Shown piece by piece: positions 21,000 to 33,398 of a stretch of 46,649 nt of DNA. Position numbers and translations under genes: made by a program. Each line of letters starts with the position of its first letter. Position 1 is the stretch's first letter. This stretch comes from Anaerolineales bacterium (GTDB taxonomy: Bacteria > Chloroflexota > Anaerolineae > Anaerolineales > UBA11858): assembly GCA_021108255.1 (NCBI GenBank), contig JAIORG010000125.1, positions 1-46,649 on the forward strand. The letters are read 5' to 3'. The notes beneath the pieces were generated by a model. It saw only the letters and a program-made list of their open reading frames with translations, did no database searches and was not told the origin of the DNA.

Positions 21000-21155
21000 T
21001 TAATCCTGATCCTTTCGGAGGTATACATATTCCCGGTGAGCTTTTCTCCAGCGCAAAATTAAACTCATGACATATCCTGAAATCATCACCCCAAACACAA
21101 GGTAACCAGCAATCATGTAATTTACAGTATCAGGTACAAAAAATCTGGACAGCAT
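21000..21155 (-). CDS. ccmD: CcmD-like small membrane protein (51 aa), absent from the ORF track
   Basis: Hand translation MLSRFFVPDTVNYMIAGYLVFGVMISGYVMSLILRWRKAHREYVYLRKDQD*; single TM then basic tail; starts 3 nt after the ccmC stop. Confidence 0.75.
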   Translation of the reverse strand: MLSRFFVPDTVNYMIAGYLVFGVMISGYVMSLILRWRKAHREYVYLRKDQD

Positions 21156-21158
21156 GGG

Positions 21159-21866
21159 TCACTCTCCCTTTGAATAAGAGTCTATCCGCAGTACATCAAC
21201 CTCAGCTCGTAATTGCCCCAATCGAATCCGATGCCAGAGCAAATCAGCAAAAAAGACCGTAAAGGCTGCCAGGCTGAAGAAAAAGGTTAATTTCATCGGT
21301 GAATCCATATTAAATCCGCCCTGGCTGGCAGCTTCAGCGCTGCCAATAACCACCGGGTGAATAGTCCGCAGCATCCGGATGGAAATAAACGTCAGAGGTA
21401 CGCTGAAAAAACCAAAGATGGCATAAATCGCCGAAAATCTTGCTCGACGTTCTGGATCATCCACTCCCTGCCTCAACAGCAAGTAGGCTGCATAAATCAG
21501 CTCAACAATTGCTGCTGTTGTTAACCGTGGTTCCCAGGTCCACCAGGTATTCCAGATTGGTCTGGCCCAAATAGAACCCAGGACAATTGCTGTCAGAAAA
21601 AATATCAAGCTGATTTCCACCGCGCCATTCCCTGCAATATCCCACAATAAATTCCCTTTGCGCAGATAAACAACTCCAGCTATCGCGGCTACCAGGAATC
21701 CCAGCATGCCTACCCAGGCGGTGGCTACATGGAAATAAAATACTTTCTGCACCGATCCCATCATCACTTCTACCGGGACATAAAAGAACACCAGGCCGGC
21801 AGCTACCAGGATCATCAAACCGGCGACGACATCAAGAATGGTAAGTAAATTTGGTTTTTCATTCAT
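21159..21866 (-). CDS. ccmC: Heme exporter CcmC
   Basis: QKVFYFHVATAWVGML, WARPIWNTWWTWEPRLTTAAIVELIYAAYLLLR, FGFFSVPLTFISIRMLRTIHP. Confidence 0.93.
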   Translation of the reverse strand: MNEKPNLLTILDVVAGLMILVAAGLVFFYVPVEVMMGSVQKVFYFHVATAWVGMLGFLVAAIAGVVYLRKGNLLWDIAGNGAVEISLIFFLTAIVLGSIWARPIWNTWWTWEPRLTTAAIVELIYAAYLLLRQGVDDPERRARFSAIYAIFGFFSVPLTFISIRMLRTIHPVVIGSAEAASQGGFNMDSPMKLTFFFSLAAFTVFFADLLWHRIRLGQLRAEVDVLRIDSYSKGE

Positions 21867-21869
21867 ACT

Positions 21870-22544
21870 TCATTCCTCCACTACAAAATCAAATACCATA
21901 AAGGCCGCTGCGGTAAATATCAAATCATAAACGATTAACAAATTCAGCCAGGCTGAGATTTCCGTCAGCGGAACCATTAACAAAAATCCCTGGCTGGCTT
22001 TCACAGCCGCAATAATAACCGGCAAAGACAGCGGAAACAGCAGGATTGGAAGCAGGATATCACGCGTTCTGGCTTGAATTACCATTGTCGCCAGCAGCGT
22101 TCCCACTGCAACATATCCAATGGAACCCAATACTACCACTAATAAAAATCCGGGTTGAAAGACCGGAACCTGGTACAGGAAACTGTACACTGGCAAGACT
22201 ATTATTTCTACCAGCAGCATAAAGATTAAATTGCCGATTGCCTTCCCAAAATAAATCACACTTCGATCAACCGGGGCCAGCAGCAAGCCATCCAGGCATC
22301 CTCGGTCTTTTTCAACCGCCAGAGACCGATTAAGCCCAATAGTTCCCGCAAAAATAAATGTTGCCCACAGCACTCCCGCGGAGAGGGATTCCTGAGCCTG
22401 AATGTCCAGCTCAAGGGCAAAGTTAAAGATCAGGATCACCAGCAAGGCAAATACCAGCATAGCGGACAAGTTCTCTCGTGTCCTCCATTCCGCGGTGAGG
22501 TCCTTCCAGATCACAGCCCGGATCGCGTTCAGGTAAGATTTCAT
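21870..22544 (-). CDS. ccmB: Heme exporter CcmB
   Basis: IWKDLTAEWRTRENLSAMLVFALLV, GLNRSLAVEKDRGCLDGLLLAPVDRSVIYFGKA. Confidence 0.92.
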   Translation of the reverse strand: MKSYLNAIRAVIWKDLTAEWRTRENLSAMLVFALLVILIFNFALELDIQAQESLSAGVLWATFIFAGTIGLNRSLAVEKDRGCLDGLLLAPVDRSVIYFGKAIGNLIFMLLVEIIVLPVYSFLYQVPVFQPGFLLVVVLGSIGYVAVGTLLATMVIQARTRDILLPILLFPLSLPVIIAAVKASQGFLLMVPLTEISAWLNLLIVYDLIFTAAAFMVFDFVVEE

Positions 22545-23248
22545 GCTGATCCCCCATTTCCCTGCAGCGCCTTGCGGTAAAAAGTCACAAAATCAGCCGA
22601 ATTAAGATCTTTTGTTGCTACAGAAGCTTTTATCTTTCCTTTGGACAGGATATCCAGCCGGGATGCCAATTCAGCAGCCCGGACTAAATCGTGAGAAGTC
22701 ATTACAACTGTCCGCCCCGCAAGGGCAATCTCCCGCAGCACACTATCCAGAATTTCACCCGCTTCCTGGTCCAAACCGGTGTGAGGTTCATCCATTAACA
22801 ATATCCGGGGGTTGTGTAAAATTGAGCGGCCGATTGCCAAACGCTGCTGCATCCCCCGGGAAAAAACCCGCACCAGGTCTGATTTACGGCTGGAGAGCCC
22901 CACCAGGTCAAGCACTTCCCCTATTCGAAGTCGCTCTACATCGTATAACCTGGCATAAAAGGACAAATTTTCTTCGGCCGTGAGATCACCATAAAGCAGC
23001 GGCTGATGAGAAACTACACCCAGATGAGCTCTAACTGCAACCGCTTCTTCCGGCAAACGGCAAGAAGCCACCTGGACCAAACCGGAGGTCGGTTTGGAAA
23101 GCGACGCCAGGATTCTTAATAAGGTAGTCTTCCCGGCCCCGTTTGGTCCCAACAACGCCACGAATTCCCCAGAGCGGACTTCAAAATCCAGCTCTCGTAA
23201 TACTGTTATTGGACCAAATCGCTTAACTAGTTTTTTTACCTGGATCAT
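22541..23248 (-). CDS. ccmA: Heme exporter ATP-binding protein CcmA
   Basis: Walker A LLGPNGAGKTTLLR, SRGMQQRLAIGRS, LLMDEPHTGLD; ATGA overlap with ccmB. Confidence 0.92.
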   Translation of the reverse strand: MIQVKKLVKRFGPITVLRELDFEVRSGEFVALLGPNGAGKTTLLRILASLSKPTSGLVQVASCRLPEEAVAVRAHLGVVSHQPLLYGDLTAEENLSFYARLYDVERLRIGEVLDLVGLSSRKSDLVRVFSRGMQQRLAIGRSILHNPRILLMDEPHTGLDQEAGEILDSVLREIALAGRTVVMTSHDLVRAAELASRLDILSKGKIKASVATKDLNSADFVTFYRKALQGNGGSA

Positions 23249-23309: not shown

Positions 23310-24551
23310 TCAAGAAAGATTTTTCGCTGATTTCTCCTGAATCGAATAAACTCTCCAGCGCAATAATTTGATCTCTTCTACCTCTTGATGATCTTCCTCT
23401 AACTCGTGCTCTTCTCCACTCAATCGTCTATTCCGGAAGAAAAGCCAGCTCCCTGCCAGGATCATCACCACGCCCAGGGCTGTCAATCCAATCAAATATC
23501 CCTGGATCTCTAGTGGAGAAGATTCATCTTGAACAAGAGCAGTTTCAGAATTCTCAGAGATCTGGAACTGCAGTTCCTCCCCCCGGTTGAGTCCTCCGCC
23601 GGCATAAACCTGGAATGCGCCGCTGGTTATATCTTGAACACCAACATCTTCCAGGTAACTTCCTTTCACTTCTATTTGATTTACCGGGGTCATTACTACT
23701 ACTGCGCCAACAGGGTAATTAATTGTCTGAGCAAAATCCAGTGTATTTCCCTGATAGGGCAGCGTGTAATACACCAGTACCTGGTACACCCCGGCCCCGG
23801 GTGAAATGCTCACAGTGTCGCCAAAACCATCCTGGGTTTCCAGATAGCGCTGACCCAGGAGTCCATCCTCGAATTCAATGGCAGCTGCGCCTTCAGGAAG
23901 AGGGAAAAAAACTGTCGGTTGATCAGGAGATCCAGCGACCACAGTCGCTTCTCCATTATTAGAAAATATAAATATCTCTACGATTTGAAGCAGACCAGGC
24001 TCTGAAAATTCAACCAGAACATGGATTCGGTCAATGTGCAATCCGGAATCATCTGCTGTAGTGTCAAATAACTGCACATGCAGCCCTAATTCAGCTGCCT
24101 CAGGCGCAAATTCAGTGATTTCTGAGCGGTAAACTGCACCGCCGTAGGTAATCGAAGCAAAGTACACTCTTCCTTCCAGGAAGGGAACATCGTTAAAATC
24201 AATTATTCCAGTTGAGGGGAGTGTCAGGGTTTCCTGGAAAACCTGGGCAAAATTGTCATACGCTTCCAGTCTAACATCCAGGTCTAGATCCAGCAGCGTT
24301 CCTCCAGTATGATCACTTACCTCAACATAAACTACTTTCAATTCAGTTTCTTCCGGTGTAGTTTCATTGGGCAGGGGTTGTTCCTGAGTCGGCACTGCAG
24401 TTGGAAGAATGGGTGTATTTACCACCGGATTGGTCTTAACGGCCTCTGGAGGCGGGGTCACATCATCTGACAGGTTCAAACAGCCGGAAAGTAACAAACT
24501 GATGCCCAGGATACAAAGGACAGGGATTGAAGTATATATTCGCCGATTCAC
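23310..24551 (-). CDS. Lipoprotein/membrane-anchored extracytoplasmic protein of unknown function inside the ccm operon
   Basis: Start taken as GTG at 24551 (GTGA overlap with upstream stop); lipobox LLLSGC; C-terminal TM LIGLTALGVVMILAGSWLFF. Confidence 0.65.
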   Translation of the reverse strand: MNRRIYTSIPVLCILGISLLLSGCLNLSDDVTPPPEAVKTNPVVNTPILPTAVPTQEQPLPNETTPEETELKVVYVEVSDHTGGTLLDLDLDVRLEAYDNFAQVFQETLTLPSTGIIDFNDVPFLEGRVYFASITYGGAVYRSEITEFAPEAAELGLHVQLFDTTADDSGLHIDRIHVLVEFSEPGLLQIVEIFIFSNNGEATVVAGSPDQPTVFFPLPEGAAAIEFEDGLLGQRYLETQDGFGDTVSISPGAGVYQVLVYYTLPYQGNTLDFAQTINYPVGAVVVMTPVNQIEVKGSYLEDVGVQDITSGAFQVYAGGGLNRGEELQFQISENSETALVQDESSPLEIQGYLIGLTALGVVMILAGSWLFFRNRRLSGEEHELEEDHQEVEEIKLLRWRVYSIQEKSAKNLS

Positions 24552-25012
24552 AATTTTTCTCCACACTGTCCACAGAATTGATCCCCCGTTTTCACAGCCT
24601 TTCCACAATGCGAACAAAAATTGGTTTTTTCCTTCTTCAACTCACGGCGGCGGGCTTCTATCATCTCTTCCAGGTCATCCTCACTTGCTGGAACTGAGGA
24701 AATACGCTTATCGGCCGGGATATTTTTTTCCAGCTTATCCACCTGCTTAATTATCTCAGCAGCCTGGGAAAGCAAAATATCCCTGTTCCGAGTATGTTCC
24801 ACGGAGGATATCTTTTCCAGATCAAATTCCAGATCCAAATCTTCAATAGAGGATAATAATCTTTCCCTTTCGGCGGTGAGAGAATCATACTTTCTAGGCA
24901 CCTGTGCCCCACGAGTATCCGTCTCTACCAGAAAAGGGCGAATAATTATGACCCCTGTCAGAATAAATATACCCAATACGATTAAAAAAGAACTCACAGC
25001 CATGAACACCAC
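24548..25012 (-). CDS. CcmI-like N-terminal TM/coiled-coil protein with C-terminal zinc ribbon
   Basis: N-terminal TM, coiled-coil YDSLTAERERLLSSIEDLDLEFDLEKIS, then FCSHCGKAVKTGDQFCGQCGEKL. Confidence 0.6.
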   Translation of the reverse strand: MVFMAVSSFLIVLGIFILTGVIIIRPFLVETDTRGAQVPRKYDSLTAERERLLSSIEDLDLEFDLEKISSVEHTRNRDILLSQAAEIIKQVDKLEKNIPADKRISSVPASEDDLEEMIEARRRELKKEKTNFCSHCGKAVKTGDQFCGQCGEKL

Positions 25013-25023
25013 CCGTCTATAGT

Positions 25024-25536
25024 TCAGAGATCCAATAAAGGATCAATGTATGATTTAATTTCCTCCAGGGACATAAAGGGACCGATCCGGACATGGACAA
25101 TGACACCATCCTGATCAATGATATATGTTTCTGGAACACCAGTAATTCGGAATGCCTGGGAAATTTTTGTTCGCAAATCCGGCCCATTGGGATAGGTGAC
25201 CTGAAACTCTTCCAGGTAAGCTAACGCTTCAGGTTCGGTATCCACATAGTCTACTCCCAGGAATAATACATCTCCCCGGGGTTGGTAAAACTTGTAGGCA
25301 GCCTCCAGATCTAATGCCTCAGGTTTACAGGATTGACACCATGAGGCCCAAAAATTCACCACAATTACACTGCCACGGTAATCAGAAAGCTGATATGTTT
25401 CACCTGAAAACGATATTAACTCAAAATCCGGAGCTATCTCTCCCCGGCCGACCTGTCCCTGCTGGGATTGAATTAAACCCACTCCCAAAATCATTAGAAG
25501 TAATACTAATCCTCCCCAGATTAATAATTTTTTCAT
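25024..25536 (-). CDS. ccmG: Thioredoxin-like CcmG/ResA family protein
   Basis: N-terminal signal/TM, FWASWCQSCKPEALDLE, GVPETYIIDQDGVIVHVRIGP. Confidence 0.88.
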   Translation of the reverse strand: MKKLLIWGGLVLLLMILGVGLIQSQQGQVGRGEIAPDFELISFSGETYQLSDYRGSVIVVNFWASWCQSCKPEALDLEAAYKFYQPRGDVLFLGVDYVDTEPEALAYLEEFQVTYPNGPDLRTKISQAFRITGVPETYIIDQDGVIVHVRIGPFMSLEEIKSYIDPLLDL

Positions 25537-25538
25537 AA

Positions 25539-26051
25539 TTATCCTTTGGATCTTTTATTTAATTCTTCTTCCACCCGGCTGATGTACTCGTCTGGCGCTT
25601 TCTTGAGTTTAGCCGCTTGCTTGGCATTCTTCCGGGAACTCACCTCCGGTTCTGCTTTTCGCCAGCGTTGAAATGCTCCTATTAGAAGGACAAAGCCTCC
25701 CACAAAAATCAACAAGGGCACAATGTAAACCAACCAATTAAACCCGCTCCTGGGGGGTTCCGCAAGAACTCGATCGCCGTACTGGTCCACAAAATATGTC
25801 TTAATCTGGTCCTCTGTCCAACCCTCACTGAGCCTATCCCGGATAATACCCCTCCACTGTTCACAGGCTGTAGTGCCGCAGGCATCCAGGGGTATATTTT
25901 CACAGACCGGACAGTAAAGCTGTTTGGCGACTGCATTTACATCATCGTCTGTTGGATATGAACCCTGCGCCATTGCAGATCCTGGAATTAAGGCAGCCAG
26001 GATTAGTATGGATGTTAATAACAATAGATAACGTTTTGTATAATTTATCAT
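25539..26051 (-). CDS. ccmH: Cytochrome c biogenesis protein CcmH
   Basis: LYCPVCENIP, IIRDRLSEGWTEDQIKTYFVDQYGDRVLAEPP, C-terminal TM; start ATG overlaps the ccmF stop (ATGA). Confidence 0.9.
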   Translation of the reverse strand: MINYTKRYLLLLTSILILAALIPGSAMAQGSYPTDDDVNAVAKQLYCPVCENIPLDACGTTACEQWRGIIRDRLSEGWTEDQIKTYFVDQYGDRVLAEPPRSGFNWLVYIVPLLIFVGGFVLLIGAFQRWRKAEPEVSSRKNAKQAAKLKKAPDEYISRVEEELNKRSKG

Positions 26052-28075
26052 CGAGCCCTCACTGGAAGCGGTTTGGATTTCTTGTCGGGCCAGGTTGTCG
26101 CCACAACCCCAATAATGAATACCCAGGCTCCTATCCAGAGCCATTTTACCAGCGGATTGTGATAAACCTTAAACGTCGCACCTTCTGATGAGACCACTTT
26201 CCAATCCACCAGGATTACATAAAAATCATCTACCAATGTGCTGCGTACACCAGGAATAGTCGCAGGTTGGTTTGAATCATAATAAAAATCTCGCCGGGGA
26301 TACAAGGTGTCTATGGTTTGACCATCCTTGTTTACACTTACAATAGCCCGGGCTACATTTCTTCCATCAGTGGTATCAAAGATATCAAGCTTCTCGTACA
26401 CCATTGTATAGGAACCCAGACTCAGTTCTCCTCCCACTGGAATTGTTCCCTGGGTTTCTATTTGGAAAAACTCAATCCCGATGATCCCCATTGCCATCAT
26501 GACAACGGCGATGTGGATGATCATCGCGCTGAAAGCCCGTTGGTTCCTTTTAAGGACATGCACTATCGAACCCCACAGGGAATCTTGTCCCTTCTTTCTC
26601 CGCACTCTTGTACGCCGGAAGAATTCAAAAGCATTCACGGCCAGCACAAATGCCACCAACCAGAAAGCCACTACTGCAGGCCAGCGTGTTAGCCCTCCAT
26701 AAAGCGGCAAGGCAATTCCAATTAATGACACGATAAATGGCTTCCAAAGCAAGCGCCCCAGGTGTTTAAATGAAGCATAACTCCAGACGGCCAGGGGACA
26801 GATCACCATAATCATTAACATGCCGCCCAGGATTGGGCCAGCAACCCGTTCATAAAATGGCGGCCCTACTGTAACCTTTTGCCCTGTCACCAGTTCAGAA
26901 ATTTTTGGGAACATCACTCCCCAGAAGGAGGTAACCAGGATCCCTAAAAGGAGCACGACACTGATGATGATCAATGATTCCTTGGAAAAGAATGAAGTCA
27001 GCACCTGCCGGGATTTGAGGTAACTCCATCGCTTGTTCAGCAGCCACAATGAACCAATCAGGTTCAGTGCGATAAAGCCCAAGAATATTGGGCCGATCGA
27101 GCTTTTCGAAAAAGCATGCACCGAGGATAGTAATCCAGAGCGAGTCAGGAAAGTTCCAAAGATAACCAGGTTATAGGTCAGGATTATTAAAACCATGGTT
27201 AACTGTTTAAACATGCCCCGCTTTTCCTGGATTAGTACGGTATGTAAAAAAGCCGTTCCCGCCAGCCAGGGCATCAAAGCAGAGATCTCTACTGGATCCC
27301 AGCCCCAATATCCTCCCCATCCCAGGACATCATACGCCCAGCGGGCTCCTAAAACCAATCCCAGGGAAAGAAAGAGCCAAGCCCATAATGTCCAGCGCCG
27401 GGAGAGCTGAATCCAGCGGTCATCTGCACGTCTGGTAATTAAACTAGCCATGGCAAACGCATAGGGAATAATAAAAGCAACAAATCCCAGATACTGCATG
27501 GGAGGATGAATGATCATCCCCGGGTGCCGCAGCAGCGGATTTAATCCAGATCCATCCCTGGGAAAGAGCTGAATACCACCAGGAGGGCGGGAAAATGCTG
27601 TTGTGATTCCCTCTGAAGTCTGCCAATAACTGACAAATGGATTTTCAAAAAAAGTATTTAACAATACAAAAAATGCCAGGGTTGCTAAACTGATCACAAT
27701 TACCCAAGGCAGCAAATCCTGATCCCGGTCCCATTTCCGAAGCGTAACAGCAGAAGTGAAACCCGCCAGCAGCCAGGACCAGAAAAGCAGCGACCCTGCT
27801 TGTCCTCCCCAGAGAGCGGTGATCTTGAGATAATCCGGCATGCTCAAACTGGAGACTTTAGCGACATACTCAAATTCAAATCGATTCGTCAATAGGAGAT
27901 ATACAAGGGATCCAACAGAGATAGTCAGAAGCGGGAATACAAGGGTCATTGCCCGCTTTGCGCTGAGAACCCAGGCTTTCTGTTTCTTCTGCTCACCATA
28001 GAATGCTGCACCAATTCCGTAAATTGAAACGACCAAAGTTATTAACAAAGATCCAAAACCAATATCAGCTGCCAT
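26048..28075 (-). CDS. ccmF: Heme lyase CcmF
   Basis: WD/WGG domain GWGGYWGWDPVEISALMPWLAGTAFLHT; multi-pass; HPPMQYLGF. Confidence 0.95.
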   Translation of the reverse strand: MAADIGFGSLLITLVVSIYGIGAAFYGEQKKQKAWVLSAKRAMTLVFPLLTISVGSLVYLLLTNRFEFEYVAKVSSLSMPDYLKITALWGGQAGSLLFWSWLLAGFTSAVTLRKWDRDQDLLPWVIVISLATLAFFVLLNTFFENPFVSYWQTSEGITTAFSRPPGGIQLFPRDGSGLNPLLRHPGMIIHPPMQYLGFVAFIIPYAFAMASLITRRADDRWIQLSRRWTLWAWLFLSLGLVLGARWAYDVLGWGGYWGWDPVEISALMPWLAGTAFLHTVLIQEKRGMFKQLTMVLIILTYNLVIFGTFLTRSGLLSSVHAFSKSSIGPIFLGFIALNLIGSLWLLNKRWSYLKSRQVLTSFFSKESLIIISVVLLLGILVTSFWGVMFPKISELVTGQKVTVGPPFYERVAGPILGGMLMIMVICPLAVWSYASFKHLGRLLWKPFIVSLIGIALPLYGGLTRWPAVVAFWLVAFVLAVNAFEFFRRTRVRRKKGQDSLWGSIVHVLKRNQRAFSAMIIHIAVVMMAMGIIGIEFFQIETQGTIPVGGELSLGSYTMVYEKLDIFDTTDGRNVARAIVSVNKDGQTIDTLYPRRDFYYDSNQPATIPGVRSTLVDDFYVILVDWKVVSSEGATFKVYHNPLVKWLWIGAWVFIIGVVATTWPDKKSKPLPVRAR

Positions 28076-28112: not shown

Positions 28113-28655
28113 TTATTCTGTCTCTATTTGATCCGGAACAGATCCTTCATATTTTGAAGGACATTTTAACAAAATTTCATCAGCTTCAAATACTCCGGAA
28201 GCAAGAACCTCACCGGTAATGATGGCTTGAGCTTCATTTTGAAGAAGGTCTGGTACGGGTCCATAATATATCACGTCCAGTCTGGGCCGACTTGGATCCA
28301 TCACGGCATTGTGTAGGGCTCTGGCTAATCCGCCTTCTTCCTCAAGCAATAGATTATCCCCCGGGACGTGAACAATAGTAAACGACAATTCCAGCGTATC
28401 CATATTATATTGAATTGAGTCCCCCAGGACAGCTCCAGATGCGCGAACATTGCGTCCTGCCAGTTCCCCTGCCGACTGCTTGTTCAGAACTTCCTCAACT
28501 GTTAAAAAGTACTGCACATTGGCAGATAACGAGGAGACAATCAAGTAAACGATTGCCGCAACGATAACCACTCCGCCAATAATAAATTTTAACTGATTTC
28601 CTTTCCTGGGATGCGCTTCTATAGGCTGCAATTCTTCCATAAACATTAACTCCAC
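28113..28655 (-). CDS. ccmE: Heme chaperone CcmE, CXXXY variant
   Basis: TM then OB-like fold; C-terminal EADEILLKCPSKYEG carries CPSKY where canonical CcmE has HXXXY; Cys codon at 28161-28163. Confidence 0.85.
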   Translation of the reverse strand: MELMFMEELQPIEAHPRKGNQLKFIIGGVVIVAAIVYLIVSSLSANVQYFLTVEEVLNKQSAGELAGRNVRASGAVLGDSIQYNMDTLELSFTIVHVPGDNLLLEEEGGLARALHNAVMDPSRPRLDVIYYGPVPDLLQNEAQAIITGEVLASGVFEADEILLKCPSKYEGSVPDQIETE

Positions 28656-31942: not shown

Positions 31943-32225
31943 ATATCCCTCCTCCTACTGTAGAAAAAGGTTAAAGATTCAATCACTCTAGAAATAGTCT
32001 AACATAAGAACAGGTCGCACTTAAATTATTCCTCCTGAATATCGACCCGGGATTCCCCTAATCTAGACGAAATCTCTCCCACATGATATACTGCTCTCGA
32101 TCCCGCAATCATGCGGGACAAATTTTGAATCACACACGTTTCCCGACCCAACGGTGCGTGCCAGAGATTAATCTCTGGTGCCGGAAGGAACGACGGAAAC
32201 GGAGGCTAAACGCAAGGAGCTAAAT

Positions 32226-33398
32226 ATGCCTATTGTATCGATGAAAGAACTATTGGAAAGCGGAGTTCATTTCGGTCACCGCACTCAGAAATGGAATCCA
32301 TACATGGAAGAATACATTTTTGCTGCCAGGAATGATATTCACATCATTGACCTCCAGCAAACTGTCCAGGCTTTGGAAGAAGCTTACGAAGTTGTCCGCG
32401 ATACCGTCGCCGGTGGAGGATCGATCCTGTTTGTGGGCACCAAACGCCAGGCGCAGGATATCATCAAAAAGAACGCCGAAAAAGTAGGCATGCCCTACGT
32501 GATCGGGCGCTGGTTGGGTGGCACACTCACCAACTGGCAAACCATCCGGGAACGGATCCACGAGCTGGAACGCTTGGAAGGCATGCGCGATCGTGGTGAA
32601 TTTGAAATCAGAACGAAAAAAGAAGCACTGGGAATGACCAGGGAAATTGAACGTTTGGAAAGCCGCCTGGGTGGCATCCGTGAAATGGATGGAATCCCCA
32701 GTCTGCTATTTGCGGTTGATGTTTCTCGAGAGGAAATTCCTGTTCATGAAGCAAACTTATTAAAGATCCCAGTTGTGGCAATGGTTGACACTAACTGCTC
32801 TCCGAAACAAATTGACTATGTTATTCCTGCCAACGATGATGCGATCCGGGGCATTCAATTAATCGTCTCGATCATCGCCCAGGCTGTCAGCGACGGCATC
32901 AATATGCGGAAAGACCACGAAGCTGATCTGGAAGCAGCTGATGCTGAAGCCCAGATGCCAGAGCAACTCCGGGACGAATTGAGTGACGAGGACCTGCTGG
33001 GTGCATCCACATTAGCTAAGATAAAAGATGATAAAGCGGTCGAATTAGATCAGGAAAAAGAAGTCGAGGAATCTGACGATACGCCAGCTGAAGAAAATGA
33101 AAAAGAAGAATCTGGTGATACGCCAGCTGAAGAAAGTGAAAAAGAAGAACCTGGTGATGTACCAGCTGAAGAAAATGAAAAAGAAGAATCTGGTGATACG
33201 CCAGCTGAAGAAAGTGAAAAAGAAGAACCTGGTGATGTACCAGCTGAAGAAAATGAAAAAGAAGAATCTGGTGATACGCCAGCTGAAGAAAGTGAAAAAG
33301 AAGAACCTGGTGATGCGCCAGCTGAAGAAAGTGAAAAAGAAGAATCTGGTGATGCACCAGCTGAAGAAAACAAAGAAGAAGATACAGAGAAGGCATAA
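32226..33398 (+). CDS. rpsB: 30S ribosomal protein S2 with repetitive acidic C-terminal extension
   Basis: MPIVSMKELLESGVHFGHRTQKWNPYM...; start MPIVS preferred over upstream ATG at 32178. Confidence 0.97.
   Translation: MPIVSMKELLESGVHFGHRTQKWNPYMEEYIFAARNDIHIIDLQQTVQALEEAYEVVRDTVAGGGSILFVGTKRQAQDIIKKNAEKVGMPYVIGRWLGGTLTNWQTIRERIHELERLEGMRDRGEFEIRTKKEALGMTREIERLESRLGGIREMDGIPSLLFAVDVSREEIPVHEANLLKIPVVAMVDTNCSPKQIDYVIPANDDAIRGIQLIVSIIAQAVSDGINMRKDHEADLEAADAEAQMPEQLRDELSDEDLLGASTLAKIKDDKAVELDQEKEVEESDDTPAEENEKEESGDTPAEESEKEEPGDVPAEENEKEESGDTPAEESEKEEPGDVPAEENEKEESGDTPAEESEKEEPGDAPAEESEKEESGDAPAEENKEEDTEKA
33069..33380 (+). repeat. 39-bp (13-aa) minisatellite, 8 units, inside rpsB
   Basis: Units E(S/P)GD(T/V/A)PAEE(N/S)EKE; 33108-33185 and 33186-33263 look identical over 78 bp. 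Confidence 0.95.

Follow-up and report, generated by a model that had tools for sequence, protein, structure and literature searches.

Does a CcmE that carries a cysteine in place of the heme-binding histidine, encoded in an operon together with ccmG and ccmH, represent a step between the System I and System I* pathways of cytochrome c maturation? This question arose from a 46,649-nucleotide contig of an Anaerolineales bacterium, the whole of which is called the window below. We consider it highly probable (about 0.92) that the locus is a complete System I (Ccm) operon with a thiol-ligand CcmE (CcmE*). It comprises the following features, with the basis of each assignment in brackets.

28113..28655, minus strand: ccmE, Cys-type heme chaperone with a CPSKY motif (ORF translation, Pfam, alignment, structure model)
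28278..28364, minus strand: insert of about 20-25 residues in CcmE, approximately residues 98-126 (alignments and structure model)
26048..28075, minus strand: ccmF, with the WWD motif and equivalents of E. coli His173, His261, His303 and His491 (alignment)
25539..26144, minus strand: ccmH, LYCPVCENIPLDACGTTACEQW, carrying two cysteines in addition to the usual CxxC (profile, E 1.7e-24)
25024..25536, minus strand: ccmG / ResA-like thiol-disulfide oxidoreductase, with WCQSC and GVPET (thioredoxin-fold match, motifs)
24548..25012, minus strand: transmembrane protein with a C-terminal zinc ribbon, in the CcmI position (profile)
23310..24617, minus strand: lipoprotein with a C-terminal transmembrane segment (conserved operon member)
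22541..23248, minus strand: ccmA, heme exporter ATPase (TIGR01189, above cut-off)
21870..22544, minus strand: ccmB (PF03379)
21159..21866, minus strand: ccmC, with equivalents of E. coli His60 and His184 (alignment)
21000..21155, minus strand: CcmD-like ORF of 51 residues with a single transmembrane segment, directly after ccmC (tentative)

The ccmE ORF (28655-28113) encodes 180 residues and ends in EILLKCPSKYEGSVPDQIETE; the C-terminal stretch of its translation reads EILLKCPSKYEGS. Since GGAG precedes both ATG codons at 28640 and 28646, translation more likely starts at one of these than at GTG 28655. Residue numbers would then shift by 3-5, and the cysteine numbered 165 here may be residue 160-162. 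The protein scores 74.1 bits against PF03100 (E 1.3e-20; gathering cut-off 24.6), and its AlphaFold model (pLDDT 85) predicts an N-terminal transmembrane helix (residues 21-46) followed by an OB fold, as expected of a CcmE. The best PDB match of the model is E. coli CcmE (8CE8/1SR3), and the D. vulgaris Cys-CcmE (2KCT) was also matched. The nearest named relative, in an Anaerolineales metagenome-assembled genome, shares 76% identity in CcmE.

When the protein is aligned with E. coli CcmE, its cysteine (codon TGT, 28163-28161) coincides with His130, and the tyrosine four residues further on with Tyr134. The first-pass annotation was thus right to read CXXXY in place of HXXXY. A cysteine at this position within a CxxxY/F motif defines the Cys-type CcmE* of System I*, and the histidine ligand of canonical System I is replaced. 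Lys164, Cys165, Pro166 and Tyr169 are invariant among 53 Anaerolineae CcmEs, a set retrieved with a pattern that itself contains KCP[TS][KR]Y.

On the minus strand the genes run ccmE-F-H-G, the CcmI-like zinc-ribbon gene, the lipoprotein gene, ccmA-B-C and the CcmD-like ORF. CcmA, B, C, E, F, G and H are therefore present in one locus, as in System I, and alignment to the E. coli proteins recovers the heme ligands and WWD domain of CcmF and the histidine pair of CcmC, residues whose roles as TM-His and P-His have been described (PMC10746174). Operons of both CcmE types, that of the window included, conserve the four CcmF histidines and both CcmC histidines; a loss of these ligands in Cys-type operons was considered and rejected on the same alignment. 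The earlier claim that ccmG and ccmH are both in the operon also holds, as the CcmH profile match and the two CcmG motifs listed above indicate. The ccmH ORF as called overlaps ccmF, and the true ccmH start is probably internal. The CcmD-like ORF matches TIGR04391 weakly (E 0.004, 17.1 bits, under the cut-off of 24).

Compared with ccmABCDEFGH of E. coli, the operon contains a homologue of every component, CcmD possibly included, together with the CcmF and CcmC ligands. It differs in the cysteine at the position of His130, in having ccmE first and ccmABC last, and in possessing a short zinc-ribbon CcmI-like protein, an extra lipoprotein and an insert in CcmE. The CcmI-like protein ends in its zinc ribbon and leaves no room for TPR repeats; its profile also matches the gene that follows ccmH, in the CcmI position, in His-type operons. 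The lipoprotein gene is conserved between the CcmI-like gene and ccmA in Cys-type Chloroflexota ccm operons, and its product has no match in Pfam or NCBIfam.

System I* was first defined by the absence of CcmH and CcmG, and its founding examples from archaea and Desulfovibrio have neither (Allen 2006 and Goddard 2010, via PMC3601427). Here, in contrast, both genes adjoin ccmE and ccmF. The idea that Cys-CcmE systems are devoid of CcmG and CcmH, on which the first-pass annotation relied, goes back to these 2006 and 2010 descriptions, and it is contradicted by our survey and, as regards CcmH, by a 2011 review of System I. The review reports Cys-CcmE in delta-proteobacteria, chloroflexi and firmicutes, with CPSKY as the commonest form (25 of 36), so the window CcmE resembles the known System I* proteins in motif and in carrier (PMC3601427). 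It also reports CcmH in about one third of bacteria with Cys-CcmE, and CcmH absence is hence not characteristic; in its Table 1 the review enters CcmG for System I* as absent or undetected (PMC3601427). A Cys-CcmE beside CcmH was thus already known in 2011, broadly enough to undo a claim of novelty on that point, and it is the usual arrangement in Chloroflexota. For CcmG together with Cys-CcmE, the published description is less explicit. Methanosarcina acetivorans CcmABCEF shares the CXXXY CcmE with the window, and the archaeal cysteine is experimentally required; it differs in having no CcmD, CcmH or CcmI, a CcmF split in two and ccm genes outside a single operon (PMC9084895).

A search of 400 Chloroflexota genomes with a completeness of at least 80% found CcmE in 262. 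Among the sequences examined, 88 were of the Cys type and 22 of the His type after removal of the main duplicates (93 and 22 before), counts that come from loci hand-chosen among the better-scoring matches and are not an unbiased frequency. For 51 Cys-type loci the downstream sequence reached 6 kb or more; among these, CcmH and CcmG were both nearby in 27, CcmH only in 7 (34 of 51 with CcmH), CcmG only in 9 and neither in 8. A second collection, of 60 Anaerolineae loci, had both proteins in 51 and neither in 7; it has some genomes in common with the first and, being drawn from genome contigs retrieved with a Cys-containing pattern, informs the co-occurrence of CcmG and CcmH only, not the frequency of the cysteine. 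No relatives were found in the viral contigs searched. L036, L038, L164, L176 and L188, from the same order or class as the window, carry a reduced ccmE-F-A-B-C arrangement with ccmG and ccmH not nearby.

Cys-CcmE with both CcmH and CcmG is consequently the commonest state in the Chloroflexota surveyed. The combination singled out by the first-pass annotation exists, and what fails is its unusual status. These data correct the association of Cys-CcmE with CcmG and CcmH loss.

Could the operon still be an evolutionary intermediate, a His-type operon whose CcmE changed to cysteine recently and which has not yet lost CcmG and CcmH? The presence of both genes beside Cys-CcmE fits such a history, and the five reduced loci indicate that loss after acquisition of the cysteine does happen. 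However, this loss seems to have occurred sporadically in particular lineages and not as one stage of a series, and the Cys state is old: it is fixed among the sampled representatives of the order and class and occurs in most of the phylum; no His-CcmE in a Cys-type operon order was seen among close relatives in the sampled order or class. The Cys type moreover has its own gene order: among the loci where CcmB was detected, ccmE precedes ccmB in all 40 of the Cys type and ccmB precedes ccmE in all 9 of the His type, which argues against a recent change. We therefore consider this history very improbable. The description as a System I operon with Cys-CcmE, CcmG and CcmH stands; its presentation as something new, midway between System I and System I*, is not supported. 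The tie between CcmE type and operon order may be new.

How would such an operon work? In a complete System I with a thiol-ligand chaperone, CcmABC(D) would load heme onto CcmE, where Cys165, aided by Tyr169, would bind it through a thioether, as reported for D. desulfuricans, or through ligation. We leave both bonds as alternatives because a non-covalent association with heme has been reported for the D. vulgaris Cys-CcmE (PMC3884852). CcmF, in which the transmembrane b-heme and WWD sites are intact, would then take the heme and attach it to apocytochromes at their CXXCH motifs, whose thiols CcmG and CcmH would keep reduced with electrons from a CcdA-type protein. The cysteine would substitute for histidine solely as heme ligand and would not replace the thiol-reduction branch.

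Genome-wide statements come from family and pattern searches of an assembly that is 94% complete. These gave one CcmE, with no second copy, one CcmH, one CcmF/CcmC set and a CcdA-type protein. They also gave two multiheme cytochrome c lipoproteins encoded side by side (L117:2150-4281, contig 11 of the same genome), in which CXXCH is repeated and which give Cytochrome_C7 and MtrC-like matches. The Ccm machinery thus has a source of electrons and substrates. The two lipoproteins are possibly involved in surface electron transfer; NrfA, sought as a substrate, was not found.

It might be argued that this CcmE does not function as a heme chaperone, or that its cysteine is a thiol partner of CcmG and CcmH while heme sits on a histidine elsewhere. 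CcmE does have histidines outside the motif, and the operon encodes several thiol proteins. The alignments, however, hold no invariant or nearly invariant histidine column, so the alternative ligand allowed for by the first-pass annotation did not appear, while Cys165, Pro166 and Tyr169 are invariant. Furthermore, it is the sole CcmE found in a genome with multiheme cytochromes, and the equivalent cysteine is needed for heme attachment in M. acetivorans, as the C120A and C120H mutants indicate (PMC9084895). We regard this explanation as the least probable of those discussed here.

In the CcmF tree, the His-type loci, a group set by CcmE motif prior to tree building, do not form one clade (p-AU 5e-5), and four lie within the Cys-type CcmFs. 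These four (L085, L092, L099 and L100) have a His-type CcmE and a CcmF grouping with the Cys type, and a ligand switch or a CcmE replacement is possible in them. The topology points to exchange of cysteine and histidine, or to replacement of CcmE, on related CcmF backgrounds. A CcmE tree built without the motif columns neither supports nor rejects a single His-type origin (p-AU 0.39). The non-monophyly of the CcmF partners of His-CcmE may be a new observation. In laboratory CcmE mutants the two ligands are not interchangeable (PMC9084895). Since Cys- and His-CcmE occur with related CcmFs in Chloroflexota, this phylum offers a natural setting for asking why.

A broader scenario is tentative, and we would put it well below even odds. 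Chloroflexota may hold two System I lineages that parted long ago and that differ in operon order and in the ligand of CcmE. In one of them, the Cys lineage, a thiol-bound heme chaperone would work together with CcmG and with CcmH, the latter having four cysteines in the class of the window; the helical insert of this chaperone, specific to Anaerolineales, would dock onto CcmF/CcmH. In a few families a Cys-type CcmE would have given way to a His-type one while CcmF stayed of the Cys type.

The CcmH of the window contains CPVC and two further cysteines. This four-cysteine form (CPVCENxPLDxCxTxxC, where a CxxC pair is usual) occurs within the class in the window, L037, L039-L042, L044 and L046, and may be new. 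Other Chloroflexota have CQCGC forms or a CcmH with CxxC missing (L049). A general link between the extra cysteines and Cys-CcmE was rejected, as most Cys-type loci outside this class have a two-cysteine CcmH.

In the structure model the CcmE insert forms, with good confidence, two helices (101-106 and 110-119) and is flanked by two OB strands. It was present in 7 of 7 same-order sequences compared, and nearly all others are without it. Its conserved GGLAxVLHxAVxDP is found in the window, in L036-L042 and in most of L120-L188, most other CcmEs being without it. This Anaerolineales-specific helical insert may also be new. Elsewhere in the window, an ORF at 32178-33398 on the plus strand resembles ribosomal protein S2 and has a long, acidic tail built from nearly identical repeats (EESEKEEPGDVPAEEN...).
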